NCBI RefSeq assembly: GCF_000003815.2
Contig: NC_049994.1
Location: forward strand, 1,136,701-1,200,700
Direction: 5' to 3'
Source of the DNA: Branchiostoma floridae
Taxonomy: Eukaryota > Chordata > Leptocardii > Amphioxiformes > Branchiostomatidae
DNA length: 64,000 nucleotides
Shown here: piece by piece, positions 31,110-41,712 of the stretch
Layout of the letters: every line of letters starts with the position of its first letter
Numbering within the stretch: position 1 is the first letter of the stretch
The notes under the pieces: model-generated
Seen by the model: the letters and a program-made list of their open reading frames with translations, nothing else
Databases searched by the model: none
What the model was told of the DNA's origin: nothing
Translations under genes and position numbers: made by a program

Positions 31110-34100
31110 TTAACCTTTTCCATCTTCACTAATGCTGCCATCATTGATAAGATGTTGAGTCTCATCATTCCCTTCTGAGCCGGCTCCTGTGTCCAGATGG
31201 AGACGTCTGTAGTTCTCCCTGAAGACACAGAGGAGTGGTACGGAGCATGCCACACCTCCAAGAGCTGCCCAGTTCATCCACGTGACACCTGCAGACACAA
31301 GGAACAGATCAACAGGTCATACATATACATTTTGTACAATGTATGTCATGTCATGTACATTTGTATATCAGAAGACTGGGCACACATTTGGTGGGTTTCT
31401 CTCTTTGTATTGTTACTGACTTCTCGACTTCCAAATTATATTGGATGATCTTTATGAACATGTGGGCTAAATGTAGTAGTTATAACAATATTACCATTGT
31501 ACATGAAAGACTACAGTAAAATACCATTACTGGTAAAGTTACATGTAGTGTTGTCAGTCCACAGTTAGACATACAAACACATAAAGCTATACTGCCATTA
31601 AATATACATGTATTGTTTGCAAAGCCATTAAACATACATGTATAAGGCTATGCTACCAATATACAGTATACAGTATAGTATAGATTGAATAAATGCGGCT
31701 CATAAATAGTAATTGAAGTTGTTTGGCTGTGAGTTTGTTATTCATGGCTCTTTCCCCGTGGTCGAGGATGTGAGGGAAGTTCTGGATGGTCTGCAGGCCC
31801 TCATGTGGCTGAGCAGTCCTATCTTCGAAAGACACACTCTGATGCACTGCTGGCATGTGAACTGGGCCGAGGACACGGTCTGGTCATCAGCTGCCTCCTT
31901 TCTCCTCTTCCTTCTATCTTCAGCATGATCGTGTCGCTATTTCTCAAGGACCTCTGCGGCCCGCCGTGTCAAAGTTTGTTAAAAGATAATTTAAAAGCTA
32001 TAGTACCCAAACCCTCTTAGTCTTATAACACATATCTTCCCCTTGTTCAAACAAGGCTCGGACATGTTGTAAGGGATTGCTATCGTCTTTCGGAAGGGAC
32101 CTAAAACGGGGTTCCCGACCTAAAATGGAACTACCTTGTTCCTATCTGGCCTGACGAACTCTAAGAGTTCTCTATGATAATACTTAGTGCATACCAACTT
32201 TTTGTTGTACAATGTTGTCTGAAGATGTCATCACATCATTTTCTATACAAATGCCTTTTACTACCAGTAGACAAGTAGCCAAAGGAAATTGTTTCAAAAA
32301 ACTTCACTTACCAACTTTGGGAAGAAGAGGAACCAGGAGGAAGATGAGAGCAAAGAGGTTGTTTCCCCAGGTCATCACTCCTGCACTGACAGCCTCTTCA
32401 ATAGGGTATGTGGTCTCCATCACCAGCTCCAGGAACAGGGGAATACTCGCGTTCACACTCACCATGGTCAGGATGAAGGAGATGTACAGACTCACTGGGA
32501 AACACAAGCACAGTAAGCTCACCATTACACAGGACACAAGTACATTTCTACATGTACCACTACGAGGGGTGTTCACACTCACCATGGTCAGGATGAAGGA
32601 CATGTACAGACTCACTGGGAAACACAAGCACAGTAAGCTCACCATTACACAGGACACAAGTACATTTCTACACGTACGACTACGAGGTACGACTACAAGG
32701 CACCCAGAGCAATTCTTTTCGTCTTTTTAATTTCAATTTTCAAGTCATTTTTGCACACAGTAAGGTTAAATAACACTATCTCATTGCATATCGACCTTCA
32801 TTGAACAAAGATGAGACGTTGTTGGGTGGTGAGAAGTCATTGAAAATCTGAGCGCTGCACGTGCCATTATTTCAAATTTCAAACGCCCGCGAACATGACC
32901 AATGAATCCCAAACGCTTCCAGAGATATTGTCACTTGTTCAAATAAGGTTTCGATTTGTGAATGGGCAAATCAGATTCAATTCGCTCTGCGACCTCATGC
33001 CTTCAAAAATCACAGAAAATTACTGACGGGAAACCGTTAGTGGCTTGACCCTGACCCTTGATTTATTGAGGGACATAATAAATCAAAGGTTTCTGTTTGC
33101 GGCATGTTTGCGCGTCCTTTTAAATGCTGAAAGTACGAAAAAATTATACAAATGTGCTAGCACGTTGAAGTAAATGTCAATATCGCACCGATTGTCTCAT
33201 CCAGAATATTTTCAATTTCAATGCTCTAAAAATTGCTCTGGGTGCCTTTAACAAATTATTAGCCTCACCAAGAAATAAGGTGCAAGGCTCAAATTTCGCG
33301 GTACAATCATTAGTATGCAGTCTTTTATCAATATCCTCTAAATTCCAAATCATTGTGGTCATTACTTAGCAGACTCCTTTTGAAATTCAGTAGGCAAGTG
33401 GCAAGAAAACCAAGGATGAACTGTGATCATAGCTGTGTGGGTTGTGTTGCCCATGCCATGGTGCCTATGACACATACATGTACCTTTTCCAAGGTCAAAA
33501 TATTCACCAGGTGGCATGTCAGGGGAATTGAACCCAGGACCTATGGGATCTGGGCTAAACACCTTAACTGTTTCACCAAGACAACACCACTCCATTATAC
33601 TAAGGCCTAGGAAAAAAATGTTGTGTTTCCTGTTTCAGTCCTGAAAAAATTAGGGTCGGTAGGTAGGGATTATCTTTTTATTTGTTGTAATTTTTTTAGG
33701 CTAGCCTAAACTCTACAGATACATGTTACAATACAGTTGAACAAAGTAAACTGAAATACATGAGGACACTCGTCTTTCAATGTCAAACTTTGTGCATATA
33801 AAAAGATACATTTTATCCTTTATTAGATGGGACAAGCAGTGTTTTTACTTCAATAGGAAGCAGGCAGAATAAAAATGCTAAGTAGAAGCTATGTGACTCC
33901 ACTACTAAAAAAAGTCTAGGGTCGGCAGGTTTTTCTAGGGTAGGTAGGGAAACAGAAAGCACTTTTTCCTAGGCCTAACAGGCAACACCACACAATGCAA
34001 CAGGCATTTCACTGTAATACCAGAAGAATATGCCTCTCTATAGTGCTAATACCCCCCTCACATTAGGTGAAAATCGATCGGACGACGAGTCTGCGAGCTC

Positions 34101-37100
34101 TAAATTACGAAGAGGCATGATCCTGCTGCCATCGATGAAATGGCAGAGTTCCACCTTCCCGTCAGGGTCATGCCTCCTCGTAATTCAGAGCTCGCAGACT
34201 CGTCGTCCGATCGATTTTCGCCTAATGTGAGGGGGGTATAAGGACAAGTCTAGACATGTACCTTGAGTAAGAGGTAAGGCACCAAACAGCATGATGGTGA
34301 ACCATGTCAGCGACCCTGTGGCACAGCACATCATCACGACTATGATCAACCTCAGGTGGCCAGCAAAGTAGTCTGCAAACCTAGGGATGGAATCAATCAT
34401 TGGTGGATCAGCACCATAATCAGTACCTGTATCAGGAATAGAATGATTCCATACCCCAGACAACAAAATGTCAACATTGGACAAACATGCAGCCAGTCTG
34501 TCATTGGTTGAATTTTTAACTTATCTGGATAGTTTGATGAAGATATGACACATTCATAACTGGCTATTGTCACTTGTATATCTACTATGTTTATACCATG
34601 TACATGTACTTGTAATTAGCCCTTGCAAATAAACTTCTTTTTTATTAAACAGCCAGTGACACAGATTAATTTTAAAACCCTGTTCTGGTCAGCACTCGTG
34701 TCAGATCTGAAAATGTCCTACAAAATTTCAAGTCTAATACATTTTGTAGTTAAGGTAATGCTGTTATGTTTACCTGCCAAGAAGCAGCCCCACTCCACAT
34801 CCTGCTATGTTGCCATAGAAGCCAAGCCAGCCTGCATCAATCTGAAATATTAAAAAAGTTGCTTCACTCCTTTAGAAATGCTGAATCAATTATACTAGAT
34901 CCACATCTAATGATCTTAAGCCTCCGAATATAATTCATGATGCAAAAATCAAAATGGTTTGATTCAACTTGACAAATATACAAGCTAACAGGTAAATTCA
35001 ATGGTTTGCATTATGTGTTCATGATGCAAACTTGCACGGAACTTGCACCGGTTCAGATTGAGGTTACTGTGAATCAGTACAACTTTGTACATGTATTTTT
35101 GTTTCAGATTCTTAGTCTTCACTGAATTGCTGTCTTGTTGAAACCTCATTCCTTTATGGCCTTGGAAAGGTCTTTGAACACATCCTGTTTCTGATACATG
35201 CCATGAAGTTTCCTCAGGATGTTTTGATCCCCCCCAATAGATATCAAGACTGCCTTTACCTCAGTCAACCAGTAAAAACTCAAGCTTGTGGCCACAACAG
35301 GATTTTACCATTCAAAACCTTCTCACTTCCTGCATCATTTTGCAAACTACTGTATGACCCATGTACTCAGATGTACATGTACAATGTGTGACAACAATGT
35401 ATGGTGTCATAACTACCAAGGCAAGCAGATTAACGTCACTTCTGTGTTCATGATGACATTTATCCTAAGTGGTTTTACTCAAACCATACCCAACAGCAGG
35501 CTTGAAACAAACCTGCTAGAATCCGTTTGGAGCATTCATGTAGTACTACACAAATTAATTTGGCTTGGCTTGACAAAACAAATTAAACCGTTTTGATTCT
35601 TGCATCATGAATGGGGCCTCAGACAGACTTCTGGGATCTGATGTCGGCACATGCATGTTCTTATAACTACCGTTAAACCTTTGTTAGCGGCCACCTTTGC
35701 ATAGCGACCACCTGGCCATTGTGGTCACTTTATGTCGGTCCCTTGGATTTTTCCCATTGGCCTAAGCATTAAGAAATAGTCTATAGCGGCCACCTGTCCA
35801 ATGCGGCCACACAATTTCCATACGTCCCGTAGATACAGAAACACTGCCTGTTGCAACCATACAGCGACTGTATGTCACCCTGCGCTGCGGGTTTAAAATT
35901 GTAGTTTGCGAGGATTTGGAGGATTCTTGACGTGGTCATTTTGGCTATAGCAGAAGTTACGCCTGCCTTGAACGTTAGAGTGCAAGTCTTTTTTGGCGAA
36001 TTTACCAACATTCCGCTTGGCAATATATCAATAATTTTTGATAGATTTGACTTTGGCAGGGTCAGTTGACTTCTGACCAGGGCTCTAGCCAGCGTCCGTT
36101 TTTCCGTCAATTGATGGAAATTTGCTGCGTGTGACGGAAAAATTTTAAAACCAATCCGTCAACTTTGACGGACAAAAATCTGATAAAAGCTCCTTGGTGA
36201 AAGCTACAGGCGGCTTGGAGACGCTGTCCATGGCCGTAAAAGCCACACACTGTTTGTTTTGCTATTGTTATGACTGTTGACAATGTGTGTCGGTGCCCTT
36301 TCGCATACGATAATCTCATTAAAACCCGTTTTTCAAGGTCTCAGTTCAGTCTCTCTAACTCCTGGAATAGTGTTTTCGCGACAATGGGAATTGGCTGACG
36401 GCAAAAAATGTCGAGCTGGCTAGAGCCCTGATTCTGACACTGTTACTTGGTGAGAAAGATTAGTGAGTACTGAAAACATGTGTAGCTAACTTGTTGCTTG
36501 TGGTCAATTGATCAACATTTTCTCTATAGTGGCCACATTTCCCTAGTCCCTTGAGTGGCTGCTATAGACAGGTTTTTGACTGGAGTTTATTTTGTGTACC
36601 TGTGAGATCCCGTGTGGAGACAGGATAACATCCAAGACTGCTGTCCACCCTCCGATCACTCCTCCAGGTACACAGTACGCCAGGCACACCAGCCAGAACT
36701 GGCCATGTCTGGAGAAAACACACCATGGAAATATTCATAATGGTCTATCAACCCTAACCCTAACCCTAACCCTAACCCACACCTCCAGGTACACAGTAGG
36801 CCAGGCACACCAGCCAGAACTGGCCATGTCTGGGGAAAACACACCATGGAGATATTCATAAATGGTCTATCAACCCTAACCCTAACCCTAACCCTAACCC
36901 TAACCCTAACCCTAACCCTAACCCTAACCCTAACCCACACCTCCAGGTACACAGTAGGCCAGGCACACCAGCCAGAACTGGCCATGTCTGGGGAAAACAC
37001 ACCATGGAAATATTCATAATGGTCTATCAACCCTAACCCTAACCCTAACCCTAACCCTAACCCTAACCCTAACCCTAACCCTAACCCTAACCCACACCTC

Positions 37101-40100
37101 CAGGTACACAGTAGGCCAGGCACACCAGCCAGAACTGGCCATGTCTGGAGAAAACACACCATGGAGATATTCATAATGGTCTAGTAGCCTGGAGTCCAGC
37201 TCCTATAGGCTCGACTCCAGGCTACTATCAAGGCAAGCAGGAAAGGCAGGCTTCACACCCTTACCCATAGTGTCTTTCACTCCTTATAGATGTCAAACAT
37301 TGCTGTGATTAGGAGGTATTGCATAGCTGCATTGTGAACACACACCCCACACACATATGCAAGAGTGAAATGGACAAAAAAAAGAGATTCTAACAGCCAT
37401 GTATGTGCAATAAATTAGCACAATTCCATTGAAGACTTTTCAAAAAGGTTTTCTTCAAGAACAAATACATGTACATGAGTGGAGCTTCTCTCACCTGAAG
37501 AGTTTTTTAAGTCCTGTTCGAAAGTCCAGCCGATCCATGGCAGCAGACAGGCTGGGTGGGGTGGGGGGCTTGGACGGGAAGTATATTAATATGGCCAAGA
37601 ACACTGCAGTACAATAGCCACATTCTGTAGAGTAAAGAAAAAGGTACATGTGTATACAAAAGGTGACATGTATATAAAAGAATGGTTGCATGTCCGTCAA
37701 ATATTTACATTATTATGTTTTTATTTTGTATCTCTCAAGGGACTACGGACCAGTCTATGCTAGCTCTAAATTGCTACATCATTCAGTGCATAACACAAGT
37801 TATCATATTTATTATTTGATCTTATTTGTAAAAATTTCTATGGTTTGGGGGAAAACTAAATGGTAGATGATTTTAGAAATAAGTTTTGTCTGTTTGCCTC
37901 ATTGACCTCATTTTAGATCTATCATAGCTGCCGCATGAGAAAGGTCTATAAAAGGACAACTTACCAACATACATCAGCCTCATGATCTGCCCTGATATGT
38001 CCTCCACTACAGCTGGAAACACAAACATGGATAGATTAGCACCAGTGCTGGGCAGCACACTTTGCTCTGGTAAAGGACAGACATTAGGTCAATTACATAC
38101 ATCATTAAAAAAATCATCTTCAAATTGCAATTATATTTAAGATAAACAGTCGGCTCTTCCCTGCAGCTTGTGTTTATTCTGTACCTGCAATTTCTATATA
38201 ACCTCCATGAAAAATTTAGTGTTTTGGGTGTTAGATGTGTGTGTCTACGTGTTAACATAGATTTGTAGTTAGCACTATCTTTTAAGAACCCCTGGACGGA
38301 TTTGTTGGATGAAGGATTTACAGTTTTATATAAAACTCTTCCTTTTTTGGAAATGCATGAATGCTATCCATATGATCAAATCAACATGGCCTTAATATAA
38401 AGACTTGTAGAATGTCAGAGATTACTTTGGTTGTAGTGCAGTGTGCTGTTGGGCATGAGATGTGGCTGGGAGACAAACAGTGGTCCTATCAGGTATCCCA
38501 CCGATGTTCCCACGTAGTTGAATATGGAGCTGATGGCAGTAGCAGTGGTACGCTGGTTTGGAGGGAACCATGTGGAGGAGATGAGAGGGGGGGCAGCCAT
38601 GAGCATGATGCCTGCTACCCCATTCAGGAACTGCCCAGCATTGATCAATCTGCAAAAATAAACAAGGTTTTTGTCATTTTTACGAATTGTAAGAAATTTA
38701 GAATTTATGAGTTTAAAACATTTTCAATGTAAAACAATGATTTAGCAAACTAATTTGATGAATTAATTCTTGTCTGGTCTAATTTTTCTGAAAATGACCC
38801 CCAAAATTCTCTACATCTCATATTCAGGAAATTTTCACCAATGAATTACTTTGACCTTCTAAAAATCATTTCCTGCATTTTGAGGGGGGAATGACGTATT
38901 GTCGCGCACTGGTGCATGCCCCTACTCTTTTTGGAAAGGTGTGGTGGGTTCTTTAACATGCGTGGGGTGTGGCTCTCACCAAACGCGGGACCTCCATTTT
39001 ACGTTCTATCTAAGGGACAGCCCTAACCGAGGCTAGGTATCATTTTCATCTGAGTGAAGTGGGGAAAGTCGTATAAAGTACCTTTCCCAAGGGCACAAGA
39101 TTGGTGACATGTCAGGATTCAAACTCAACTCCCACATGCTGCCGCCATAACAGTATGCATAACAGTACCCTACCGTCAGACGTCAAGAAGTTACATTTCA
39201 TTTTCTAGATAAGGTACAAATGGTAAAATGTTTTACTATATTCAATGAGGTTTCTGCCACTACAGTCTATAAAAAGTAGACTTACATAGTAGCTATGCCC
39301 GCTGATGCAGGAATACATCTCAGTCCTGTTCCCACTGCGATGAGCAAGGCTGTCAACACCACAGAGAAGCGTAGTCCTGGAACAATATTGACAACAATAA
39401 AGACACACTTAATACTACTGCTGTTATAACTTTCCAAAGAAACAAACAAGTTTGATTACAAAAGGAAGTTACAACAGAAAAACAAAAGACCACATAATTG
39501 CTTAGCTTCTATCTCACTGACTTGAGGTACTCTTGAGGTACGTTGGAGTTTGTTCACTTGTGGCATCTTTATACTTTTTTAGCCAATTTTCCCTTGCACC
39601 GACACTAACGTGAGGCACTGTGGTCATTGGAAATTGCAATGTTGCCATTGAATTGAAAATCAAAATAAAATTACTAATGAATAAATGATCTAGAGATTTG
39701 TACTGATAAAGGGATGTTCATGTACATGTATGATACGTTTTGTACTTGGAACAACTTAATTTTTTAGGTAACATATCACGAAATATACTTCTAAACCTTG
39801 GCTCTTGAAAAATGTGGTCGTTAAATTAATTGATAGAGACCTTTGTTATACACTGCTATATGTATATTAAGTATATTCTGCTCAGGGGTATATTCTGGTT
39901 AGTCAGTAAGGCATACATGTCTGTGTATATTTTGGTTTGTTGCACCACTGCTCACTAAAATTATAAAATCGCCTACCAGGGCTCGAAATTCATTTTTGGA
40001 AATTATGAAACAAGTACTATGACAGACATTTTATCATCTTTCTAACACATAGATGTAAAGCAATATGGTATTTACTAGTATACTGACATCTTTAAATACA

Positions 40101-41712
40101 TAAGCCTATGAAAATATTTGTCTGCACCAATGCACCCAGAGAAAAAAAAATTGGGTGCACAGCTCCAATTTTGGGTGCACCTGGGTGCACATTAACACCC
40201 AGTATATTGAGCCCTGCCTACTAACCTTTGACCACCAATATCCACATAGCCACTACAGTGAAGGCCACATATGTAATATTGTCCCAATTCTCTAACAGTG
40301 CAATATCAGTGTCTTTCCAAGCGAACACCAGCTTGGCGGAGACTGAGACTGGACCCCAGGAGTTCCACACCGCTCCCTGTGCGATCCCCAGCAGTGAGAA
40401 GACTGCTAGAACATACCATCTCCGTCCGTACAACACCACACTACGGTCTGGAGCTGACACATTGTCCATAGTGGCAGATTGAACTAATAAATAGTCGTTT
40501 AAATCTATGGTTAAACCAACACAAAGACAAACATGCTGACTGACAGACACCCAGGTGTGGCATGCCTGTTATACAGATACAGACATACTGTAGCTGACAC
40601 CAGTGTTAGTTACCCTAGCTAGCTAGCATGGCCACTCGCTACAATACCAACAACAATACCTCTGCTCTCAGGTATAAAGTGACCTTTGTACTTGGTTAAT
40701 ATTTGCTCAATAAGCTGTAAGTTGTACTGGACTTTTGACTGCACAAAATACATTGCATGCAACAATTTTCTTACCTTCATAAGATGTACAAATTATGCAT
40801 TTCCATGATTAATAAGAATATTCTATCATAGCAGTATTTTTCAGTGTATTTCTTGTCCCAGACATGACATGGTCTTGACACTTGGTCAGGCAGATTAGTC
40901 CACATCAGGACAAGGTGGGGCAGGTTTGAGTCCCCTACTAATGTTTACCTTTGGAACTGCAGGGGCAGTTTTGTCAAAACATTCAGAATAGGATAACTGA
41001 AGAAAGGAATGACATGCAGGTAGCTTTGGCAAAGATGTACACAATGTAATGCACATTATGCAAATGAGGACCACATTTGCATAATTAATGATAAAATTAT
41101 TATCAATATCATCATAATCATTATCACTATCATTTTGTCTTCATTATGATACTATTCCAATATCTTTCATAACTGAACGTCAATTATAAAAATGTGACAA
41201 ATGTCATACATGACTGCAGCTGGTGGAACATAAACAGATAACGTTACCAAAAATTCAAGTAAGGAGGTAAAATGTACAAAAAATGTCAAGTAACTTTAGG
41301 CAAGGGAATATTGGTTTGGGGCAGTTGGTTTTTAATGTAAATGTCCTTGCCTGGAAGGATCAGTGTACTTTGAAAACCTGTCCAACCCTGGGCAGTACTC
41401 ACTGTCAGCATTGATGTACATCAGTCCTGGTGCAAAGAGGATGAAGGCTATACAGCCCCAGTTTGCTAACATGGCGATCTTCCCATCTGTCCACCCGTAC
41501 ACCAGCCTAGCGGAGTCTGAGATGGGCCCCCAACAGTTCCACACCGCGCCCTGGGCGATACCCAGCAGACAGAAGGTTCCCACGATCCACCAGCGCCGAT
41601 GGTACGCAACAATCTGGGGGGGACTGGGAGCTGTGGAAGGCAGGACTGTTGTTGTTGGCAGGACTGCATCTTGTTCTGAGTCTGGAGAAGTTGGTACTGC
41701 ATACTGAGTCAT
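31110..41712 (-). CDS. SLC49A4-like: SLC49A4 (DIRC2)-like MFS transporter, complete
   Basis: Exons (minus): 1a 41403-41712, 2 39286-39376, 3 38426-38649, 4 37965-38066, 5 37495-37624, 6 36600-36708, 7 34774-34841, 8 34262-34380, 9 32312-32494, 10 31110-31288. All junctions are GT-AG and in frame; with exon 1a the protein is 504 residues (482 with alternative exon 1b), close to the roughly 480 of the family. Hallmarks: RRWWIVGTFCLLGIAQGAVW and WGPISDSA (TM1-2), GTGLRCIP (exon 2), NGVAGIMLMAAPP then STWFPPNQRTTATAI (exon 3), YFPSKPPTPPSL (exon 5), FADYFAGHLRL then TWFTIMLFG (exon 8), PLFLELVMETTYPI (exon 9), and a short acidic C-terminal tail. In vertebrates SLC49A4 is a lysosomal-membrane transporter, reported as a proton-driven pyridoxine exporter; that substrate is not shown here. 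Introns 5 and 9 contain partial exon duplications. Confidence 0.93.
32450..32690 (-). repeat. Tandem duplication of acceptor and 5' part of exon 9
   Basis: A 120-bp unit at 32450-32569 recurs from 32570 to about 32676 with few changes. Each copy includes the acceptor TGTTTCCCAG and the start of exon 9 through CATCCTGACCATGGTGAGTG. Only the left copy is connected to the rest of exon 9. Confidence 0.85.
33365..33600 (-). mobile_element. tRNA-like SINE copy
   Basis: On the minus strand TTGGTGAAACAGTTAAGG (A-box-like) and GGTTCAATTCC (B-box-like) are followed by TTGACCTTGGAAAAGGTAC, the same body as the copies at 38940 and 48186. Confidence 0.6.
33601..33978. mobile_element. Inverted-repeat element with AGGCCTAGGAAAAA ends
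   Basis: Begins TAAGGCCTAGGAAAAAAATG and ends CACTTTTTCCTAGGCCTAA. It also has an internal repeated phrase AGGGTCGG(T/C)AGGT. Solitary ends resembling CTTTTTCCTAG(G/A)CCTAA are at about 13495 and 18200. It lies in intron 8 of the SLC49A4-like gene. Confidence 0.75.
34049..34239. mobile_element. 191-bp long-arm inverted-repeat element
   Basis: Arms of about 75 bp: ATACCCCCCTCACATTAGG, GAAAATCGATCGGACGACGA and GTCTGCGAGCTCT are mirrored on the right, ending GTGAGGGGGGTAT. It sits about 20 bp inside intron 8 from the exon 8 donor. The arms are nearly identical, which suggests recent insertion. Confidence 0.85.
35672..36588. mobile_element. TATAGCGGCCACC inverted-repeat element with nested insertions
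   Basis: Left side AAACCTTTGTTAGCGGCCACC-like, with TATAGCGGCCACC again near 35783; right side GAGTGGCTGCTATAGACAGG followed by TTTTTGACT in inverted orientation. Between them lie a segment related to 22590-22760 and, inside that, a hAT-like element at 36078-36430. Confidence 0.55.
36078..36430. mobile_element. hAT-like non-autonomous element
   Basis: 353 bp with ends CAGGGCTCTAGCCAGC and GCTGGCTAGAGCCCTG. Flanks are CTTCTGAC (36070-36077) and ATTCTGAC (36431-36438), an 8-bp duplication with one mismatch, the length expected for hAT transposition. It interrupts the repeat shared with 22.6 kb, whose continuation GTTACTTGG resumes afterwards. Confidence 0.85.
36660..37183. repeat. Interstitial TTAGGG arrays alternating with partial exon 6 copies
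   Basis: Telomeric (CCCTAA)n runs at 36752-36778, 36873-36936 and 37030-37093 separate four copies of an approximately 92-bp block (36660-36751, 36779-36872, 36937-37029, 37094-37183). Each block holds, on the minus strand, intron end GTTTTC(C/T)CCAG and the first 47 or so nt of SLC49A4-like exon 6 (ACATGGCCAGTTCTGGCTGG onward). Only the leftmost block continues into the full exon; the others read into GTGTGGGTTAGGG. Confidence 0.95.
37183..37226. repeat. Hairpin with 14-bp perfect arms
   Basis: AGTAGCCTGGAGTC and GACTCCAGGCTACT separated by 16 bp, directly adjoining the telomeric array. Confidence 0.85.
38940..39185 (-). mobile_element. tRNA-like SINE copy
   Basis: Minus strand: GAGTTTGAATCCTGACATG (B-box-like), CTTGTGCCCTTGGGAAAGGT, then CGACTTTCCCCACTTCAC and AATGGAGGTCCCGCG. 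The same body is in the plus copy at 48186. It lies in intron 2 of the SLC49A4-like gene. Confidence 0.65.
39977..40216. mobile_element. hAT-like element abutting the exon 1b donor
   Basis: 240 bp with ends CAGGGCTCGAAAT and ATATTGAGCCCTG. Near-matching CCTACCA and CCTACTA at the two junctions look like a degenerate target duplication. The right end lies 9 bp beyond the exon 1b splice donor. Confidence 0.7.
40226..40469 (-). CDS. SLC49A4-like: Alternative first exon 1b of SLC49A4-like gene
   Basis: From ATG 40469 it encodes MDNVSAPDRSVVLYGRRWYV, then LAVFSLLGIAQGAVWNSWGP and two hydrophobic segments, ending GTC AAA G|GTTAGT in phase 1. It shares LLGIAQGAVWN exactly with exon 1a and aligns along its whole TM1-TM2 part, but its cytosolic N-terminus is much shorter. 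Both 1a and 1b can splice in frame to the exon 2 acceptor at 39376, so they look like mutually exclusive first exons with separate promoters. Alternatively, one is a relic of a tandem gene duplication. A short hAT-like element starts at the donor's intronic side. Confidence 0.85.
40790..41110 (-). repeat. Dispersed CTCCATG-family repeat, minus fragment
   Basis: GACATGGTCTTGACACTTGG, then CTGCAGGGGCAGTTTTGTCA and TGCAAATGAGG..TTTGCATAAT match reversed copy 1 and 2 blocks; the terminal palindrome is absent. Confidence 0.6.

Follow-up and report, generated by a model that had tools for sequence, protein, structure and literature searches.

Introduction

Some amphioxus genes contain minisatellites, termed mirages, that duplicate intron-exon boundaries (PMC3087553). 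Mirages have been published for Adh3, the globin genes BflGb6 and BflGb9, troponin C and PGBD5 (PMC3087553, PMC3902484), and in one globin gene the two haplotypes carry 6 and 3 units, respectively (PMC3087553). Their origin and mechanism were called unclear, while, for the globin mirages, exon duplicates that contain potential splice sites were proposed as a source of introns (PMC3087553). Telomeric insertions at breaks in mammalian chromosomes show in-register bases, additions and occasional duplications of the flanks (PMC2246262), and the question has been raised whether intronic telomeric repeats affect splicing (PMC7215372). Here, we describe a stretch of 64,000 nucleotides from Branchiostoma floridae (contig NC_049994.1, here C16:1136701-1200700; hereafter the window), in which partial copies of exon 6 of an SLC49-like transporter gene alternate with telomeric TTAGGG repeats. 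This exon 6 array is a mirage, and thus of a known kind, but its telomeric core is new and recurs in this genome. The published anatomy of mirages, the second mirage at exon 9 of the same gene and the recurrence of telomere-cored mirages in the genome had all been missed in a preliminary description made from the sequence of the window.

Like the published mirages, the exon 6 array resembles a minisatellite in which an intron-exon boundary is tandemly duplicated inside a gene, with few units. The unit is 157 bp long, as compared to 150-160 bp in BflGb6 and 157 bp in BflGb9, and as in BflGb6 it is the acceptor and the start of the exon that are duplicated (PMC3087553). The core is different, in that the portions of the accounts of published mirages available to us name no telomeric repeats, and a search of titles and abstract openings in the open-licence literature recovered no description of telomeric repeats in mirages. 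With the short interstitial telomeric sequences (ITS) found at breaks in primates, rodents and horse, the array shares short, perfect runs of TTAGGG in the chromosome interior and a duplication of the flank, which is present in some of those cases (PMC2246262), and may also share the small in-register agreement at the join. However, the flank duplication is here approximately 90 nt long, extends over a splice site and has been amplified. The 229 human loci listed in PMC7215372 all lie outside exons, whereas the repeats of the exon 6 array are bordered by exon pieces. Where introns arise from tandemly duplicated exon segments, the duplicated pieces likewise carry potential splice sites, but the ten existing exons of the host gene form an open frame without a new intron.

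Mirages with a telomeric core bear both on the origin of mirages (PMC3087553) and on the role of intronic telomeric repeats in splicing (PMC7215372). The core, being foreign, would mark where the ends were joined in repair, so that comparisons of alleles and species can tell which came first, and each telomeric mirage locus offers matched true and decoy splice sites beside UUAGGG.

Structure of the exon 6 array

In the direction of transcription, the native intron is followed by a 42-bp hairpin, block S4, 65 nt of TTAGGG repeats, block S3, another 65 nt of repeats, block S2, 29 nt of repeats and the true exon 6. Three (TTAGGG)n runs in intron 5 thus alternate with four blocks, in agreement with the preliminary description. 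That description had counted four partial copies of the exon; three blocks are indeed partial copies (hereafter decoys), but the last block holds the complete, true exon 6 (36600..36708, 109 nt, donor CAG|GTACAC), which was placed by the joined reading frame and by splice scoring. It is preceded by the end of intron 5 (block S1, 36709..36749), as delimited by sequence alignment. The perfect telomeric stretches are located at 36750..36778 (T1, 29 nt), 36872..36936 (T2, 65 nt) and 37029..37093 (T3, 65 nt), and contain 4, 10 and 10 perfect units, respectively, with TTAGGG on the coding strand and the C-rich strand on the plus strand of the window. The first 47 nt of exon 6 are repeated in the decoys S2 (36783..36829), S3 (36941..36987) and S4 (37098..37144), which are preceded by intron-like parts at 36830-36871, 36988-37028 and 37145-37183. 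All of these features belong to the minus strand. The near-perfect hairpin (37184..37225, no strand assigned) is flanked by TA and TA, has arms of 19 nt including the TA, and is situated at the outer edge of S4; the other three blocks have no hairpin. A transposon family as the source of the hairpin was rejected, in that its palindromic pattern matched only once, at this site, in the genome (513,431,437 bases in 431 contigs).

A search for TTAGGGTTAGGG with at most one mismatch gave 21 matches in the window, all of them within the exon 6 array, whereas shuffled sequences gave 0.25 on average and no more than 2. With at least four TTAGGG units, less than one mismatch per unit and a position inside the chromosome (C16, 1.17 Mb from the contig start), the array agrees with ITS in these respects. 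It also shows three hallmarks of a mirage, namely tandem direct repeats, an exon-intron boundary within the unit and a reading frame that is open when block S1 is used.

The blocks are spaced by 157, 158 and 121 bp along the direction of transcription and are 96-98% identical over their aligned parts. Some 40 nt of intron 5, together with the acceptor and 47 nt of exon 6, are common to each decoy and the true copy. The copying of these 47 nt had been described before, to which we add that the shared exon part reaches 52 nt if one mismatch at the far end is allowed, and that the true exon differs from all three decoys at exon position 31. The alignment of the true copy to S4 extends from -39 to +52 around the splice junction. 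Two variable sites occur in all four combinations (C-T in S4, T-C in S3, C-C in S2 and T-T in S1), and a one-base insertion is private to S2. There is no telomeric DNA beyond the outermost blocks, S4 being preceded by native intron (including the hairpin) and S1 followed by native exon. At the exon-side join, where the native sequence reads GGAGGAGTG|ATC and the decoy reads GGAGGTGTG|GGTTAGGG, one base (G) is in register with the repeat, and at the intron-side join TT is common to the flank and the repeat; both come from one event and are close to what is expected by chance. A frame of 172 aa runs through the array (36656-37174). It is kept open by the repeat, since TTAGGG translates to LG or RV in two frames out of three, and was not taken for a gene.

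Splice signals and coding consequences

The host gene has ten coding exons on the minus strand (31110..40469) that were joined at AG/GT junctions into a single open frame of 464 aa. Because these ten exons give an open frame, the last acceptor of the array must be used for a working protein. The protein matched the Pfam domain MFS_1 (1.4e-17), and its best match in PDB was FLVCR1 (9.4e-25), a member of the SLC49 family. The domain, together with FLVCR1 as the best solved relative, thus points to an SLC49-type transporter; SLC49A4-like was the name given in the preliminary description. Exon 5, before the array, is located at 37495..37624 (minus strand, donor CAG|GTGAGA), as inferred from the joined frame and splice scoring.

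Splice sites were scored with a simple matrix. The decoy acceptors reached 3.4-3.9 and the true acceptor 3.9, with a donor score of 3.2 for the decoys and 0.34 for the true exon 6. The possible donor, GAG|GTGTGG, is found as previously noted in the three decoys, but not in the true exon 6, which reads GAGGAGTGA at this position. A UAGGG motif starts at +9 of each decoy donor. On paper, it is conceivable from these signals that the decoys are used in splicing. A single 47-nt pseudo-exon shifts the frame, as had been pointed out, and ends the protein at 278 aa, and two pseudo-exons (94 nt) shift it by length alone, but three pseudo-exons together (141 nt) keep the frame. Reading through any decoy in the coding frame leads to a TAG stop within the first telomeric unit.

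The second mirage of the gene (32451..32687, minus strand) consists of two copies of 120 bp (97% identity) that span the acceptor of exon 9 and 44 nt from its start, and the true exon 9 was placed at 32312..32494 (minus strand) by the joined frame. The decoy in this mirage carries a strong donor-like sequence, ATG|GTGAGT, and the mirage contains neither telomeric DNA nor a simple-repeat core.

Telomeric repeats within direct repeats elsewhere in the genome

The motif (TTAGGG)4 gave 564 and 779 overlapping matches in the genome. The ends of arrays were sorted by the phase of the repeat, and three of the six phases were covered. The 33 ends of the type TT|not A and the 65 ends of the type GGG|not T were listed in full; the third phase comprised 171 ends of the type T|not T, and many of the first 100 of these lie in clusters taken for satellite. 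We examined 65 loci, of which 16 were selected initially, 25 completed the TT phase and 24 came from the GGG phase; TTAGGG loci taken from this genome are designated by the letter L. Thirteen of the 65 belong to two dispersed satellite families and were dropped before counting, and 53 remained, including the exon 6 array. One family has a unit of about 171-187 bp with short TTAGGG runs (L033, L042, L044, L053, L056, L063 and L068; matched by L052, L082 and L089), and the other is represented by L046 and L067 and matched by L088.

Direct repeats at the telomeric stretch were identified at nine of the 53 loci (exon 6 array, L034, L035, L036, L048, L061, L062, L086, L090), with a rule of at least 40 nt and at least 75% identity for 41 loci and one that was slightly less strict for the other 12. 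At six of the 53 loci (exon 6 array, L034, L035, L048, L062, L090), but not at L036, L061 and L086, the copies flank a perfect array of four or more units on either side. By this stricter definition, the frequency was higher than at control points drawn from the same loci and from the window (6/53 vs. 2/164, p 0.003), also when the exon 6 array was left out (5/52, Fisher p 0.0097); in an earlier version of the scan with other cut-offs, the controls gave 3/85 and 9/139. Only short repeated units, removed by the telomere mask, were seen at L073, and only short telomere-like tandem units at L059 and L060. At L090 (167-634), a segment of 132-141 bp is present on both sides of the telomeric stretch with 89% identity, and no exon was recognized.

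The architecture of the exon 6 array was recovered at seven other loci. The exons concerned belong to an Rh transporter (L036; PDB, 1.1e-15), a dynein (L062; AAA_9, 2.8e-9 for the exon and 3.6e-28 for the next exon), a fibrinogen-like protein (L048; PDB, 7.6e-5 for the exon, and Pfam, 1.2e-11 for another exon) and phosducin (L086; 1.9e-14 for a neighboring stretch). For L034 and L035, domain matches are weak and the exon call rests on the open frame, splice signals and copies. The seventh, L032, came from the earlier scan, is below the later length cut-off and has no Pfam match. The telomeric DNA of L034 and L035 is limited to the space between the copies, as in the exon 6 array. Two further mirages with other cores were found beside these loci: one with a (TTTG)n core on the donor side (L035:1-344), probably in the same gene as the telomeric mirage, and one with an (AAAT/AAAC)n core on the acceptor side (L062:5115-5501), in the same dynein gene.

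Position relative to splice sites and strand of the repeat

At seven of the nine loci with direct repeats, the duplicated segment contains a splice site of a recognizable exon, with exon calls made partly by eye after the sequences had been seen; the direct repeats at L061 and L090, where no exon was recognized, count against an association with splice sites. Leaving out the exon 6 array, six of eight corresponds to p ~2e-4 if a random 90-nt segment holds a junction 14% of the time, which is an estimate from one gene. Coding potential was assessed with a small codon table trained on the window, some segments being low-complexity noise, and the exons to be tested were chosen by eye. In the acceptor-side events, the copies reach 52 nt (exon 6), 44 nt (exon 9), 54 nt (L036), 45 nt (L034), 47 nt (L086) and 48 nt (second mirage of L062) into the exon, which gives a mean of 48.3 and a standard deviation of 3.9 in this small sample of six; another copy in the second mirage of L062 reaches 60 nt. 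A genome-wide search in one orientation for GTAAGT at most 30 nt before (TTAGGG)3 recovered 9 matches from 3 places, which is too few for a genome-wide test of donors.

The coding strand carries TTAGGG in every one of the eight telomeric mirages (exon 6 array, L032, L034, L035, L036, L048, L062, L086), as compared to 6/12 other genic loci (Fisher two-sided p 0.042), the strands of the assigned exons having been checked. For these twelve, the comparison rests on exon-like stretches nearby (Pfam E ≤0.0024, with L050, L055, L059 and L091 below Pfam's own cut-off). The repeat is on the same strand at L055, L059, L066, L078, L094 and L095 and on the opposite strand at L037/L038 (counted once, with L037 searched), L050, L054, L057, L069 and L091. 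Two apparent same-strand cases, L081 and L084 (no Pfam match), were left out of the count. L074 is a possible mirage with an unconfirmed exon and the C-rich strand on the coding side, the inclusion of which gives 8/9. The bias was first noticed on six loci, and two later loci agreed. It could be mechanistic, with a free end of the coding strand being extended, or selective. The opposite orientation would put CUAAC, which is near the branch-point consensus, in the pre-mRNA. If they hold genome-wide, the centering on splice sites and the strand bias would suggest either that the breaks are linked to transcription or that splicing is under selection.

Origin of the exon 6 array

The origin that we favor, with a probability only just above even, is that this mirage was born by break repair with a duplication of about 90 nt and capture of telomeric DNA, followed by amplification. 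A break around the exon 6 acceptor would have been repaired with duplication of the segment from about -39 to +52 of the splice site, and TTAGGG repeats, derived from telomerase or from a captured fragment, would have been added or captured at the join, resulting in two blocks with telomeric DNA between them. Unequal exchange or slippage may then have multiplied the unit of ~157 bp until four blocks were separated by three telomeric stretches. Splicing of the pre-mRNA would use the last acceptor, the sole one with the whole exon 6 behind it, and pass over the decoys. A duplication of ~90 nt filled with telomeric DNA is consistent with repair of a staggered break. The identical length of T2 and T3 (65 nt), the four combinations at the two variable sites and the insertion private to S2 fit an amplification to four blocks, and the first two are what exchange between blocks would produce. 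The recurrence of the architecture at seven other loci, the excess of direct repeats over control points and the in-register bases and flank duplications known from mammalian insertions (PMC2246262) also speak for this origin. Repair with telomeric DNA and subsequent tandem amplification had been suggested in the preliminary description, and with telomeric DNA only between the copies and 1-2 nt shared at the joins we retain it as the best account, although the mechanism, unlike the anatomy, the block order, the open frame and the recurrence, is one that we infer.

Some observations speak against break repair. The microhomology at the joins is just 1-2 nt and near chance, and at L034 and L086 the repeat is preceded by ~15 nt that are non-telomeric or degenerate. 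Telomere-like DNA is present also outside the copies in four of the eight telomeric mirages (L036, L048, L062, L086), which fits a pre-existing repeat equally well. Finally, other mirages have (TTTG)n or (AAAT/AAAC)n cores, or no such core, so that telomerase cannot be the general cause of mirages; simple-repeat cores may have been added in repair or may have provoked the event.

We tentatively extend break repair to the class as a whole, an extension that is more doubtful than the origin proposed for the exon 6 array itself. Telomere-cored mirages might be a recurrent class that records the birth of mirages, in which paired breaks or nicks ~90 nt apart at splice sites of transcribed genes are filled and joined, with telomerase sometimes adding TTAGGG to the non-template (coding) strand. 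If true, paired breaks would explain the position at splice sites, the reach of 44-54 nt into the exon in six events and the coding-strand orientation in 8/8.

Alternative explanations

A different order of events, with the repeat present first, is possible but on balance unlikely. A G-rich, quadruplex-prone TTAGGG repeat or another microsatellite near a splice site would stall replication or transcription, and a template switch back by ~100 nt would duplicate the boundary along with the repeat. The (TTTG)n and (AAAT/AAAC)n cores at L035 and L062 are in line with this order, as is the telomere-like DNA that flanks the copies on the outside at L036, L048, L062 and L086; it was the telomeric DNA outside the copies of L086 that moved a little weight from break repair to this explanation. 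However, tandem duplication of a boundary with its repeat would not confine telomeric DNA to the space between copies, as is the case in the exon 6 array, L034 and L035, and the exon 9 mirage contains no simple repeat.

It is improbable that the decoys serve as a regulated poison exon or alternative-acceptor cassette, in which UUAGGG arrays, with the hnRNP A1 motif UAGGG, silence or gate them. The decoy acceptors are similar to the true acceptor and the decoy donor scores above that of the true exon 6 in the simple matrix. UAGGG starts at +9 of each decoy donor. In human cells, an hnRNP A1 site ~11 nt after the donor represses a pseudo-exon of MTRR, and a site at 70 nt in COL4A5 was without effect (PMC4932749). 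The orientation of TTAGGG (8/8 in mirages vs. 6/12 at other genic loci) would also agree with a function in the transcript. Nevertheless, inclusion of one pseudo-exon truncates the protein, and the authors of the globin study concluded from the Adh3 data and reverse transcription PCR that regular splicing is undisturbed by other mirages (PMC3087553). The donor-side mirages L048, L032 and L035 have the repeat close after the true donor too; silencing is thus no uniform rule, and these three cases weaken hnRNP A1 silencing as a general one.

An assembly artefact, in which the array was built from collapsed or stitched reads, had been given as the alternative in the preliminary description and is very improbable. 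In polymorphic genomes, the assembly of tandem arrays easily goes wrong. For one published mirage this happened in the draft genome, according to the description of a supplementary file (PMC3087553), and the exact number of units in the exon 6 array may be wrong. However, the blocks are not identical, with differences at several sites and a one-base insertion private to S2, the hairpin is found in one block only, the same architecture is seen at seven other loci and the coding frame is open, which together make an artefact unlikely.

Although the satellite of ~171-187 bp carries TTAGGG at several genome sites, the notion that a dispersed satellite or transposon family with TTAGGG made the array is scarcely tenable and was rejected, in that neither satellite family matched with the telomere masked, the masked unit matched nothing in the satellite library or at the other loci compared, the 601-bp region of the array matches only itself in a genome-wide search that skips common words, and the duplicated part is local intron and exon; a satellite flag on the unmasked array was taken to reflect its telomeric part.

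Additional observations

Among the matches listed, array ends of the telomeric motif cluster at a few places (e.g., C9:15.34-15.60M, C12:11.58-13.35M), and that they mark centromeres would be a guess. A long cluster of telomeric runs is located inside the chromosome at L065:2473-3070 (C16:14.99M), with six perfect runs of at least four units, the longest having 41 units. Within the window, tandem repeats of 123 nt at 357-1374 are partly contained in an open frame of 411 aa (829-2064) and probably represent a repetitive protein-coding exon.

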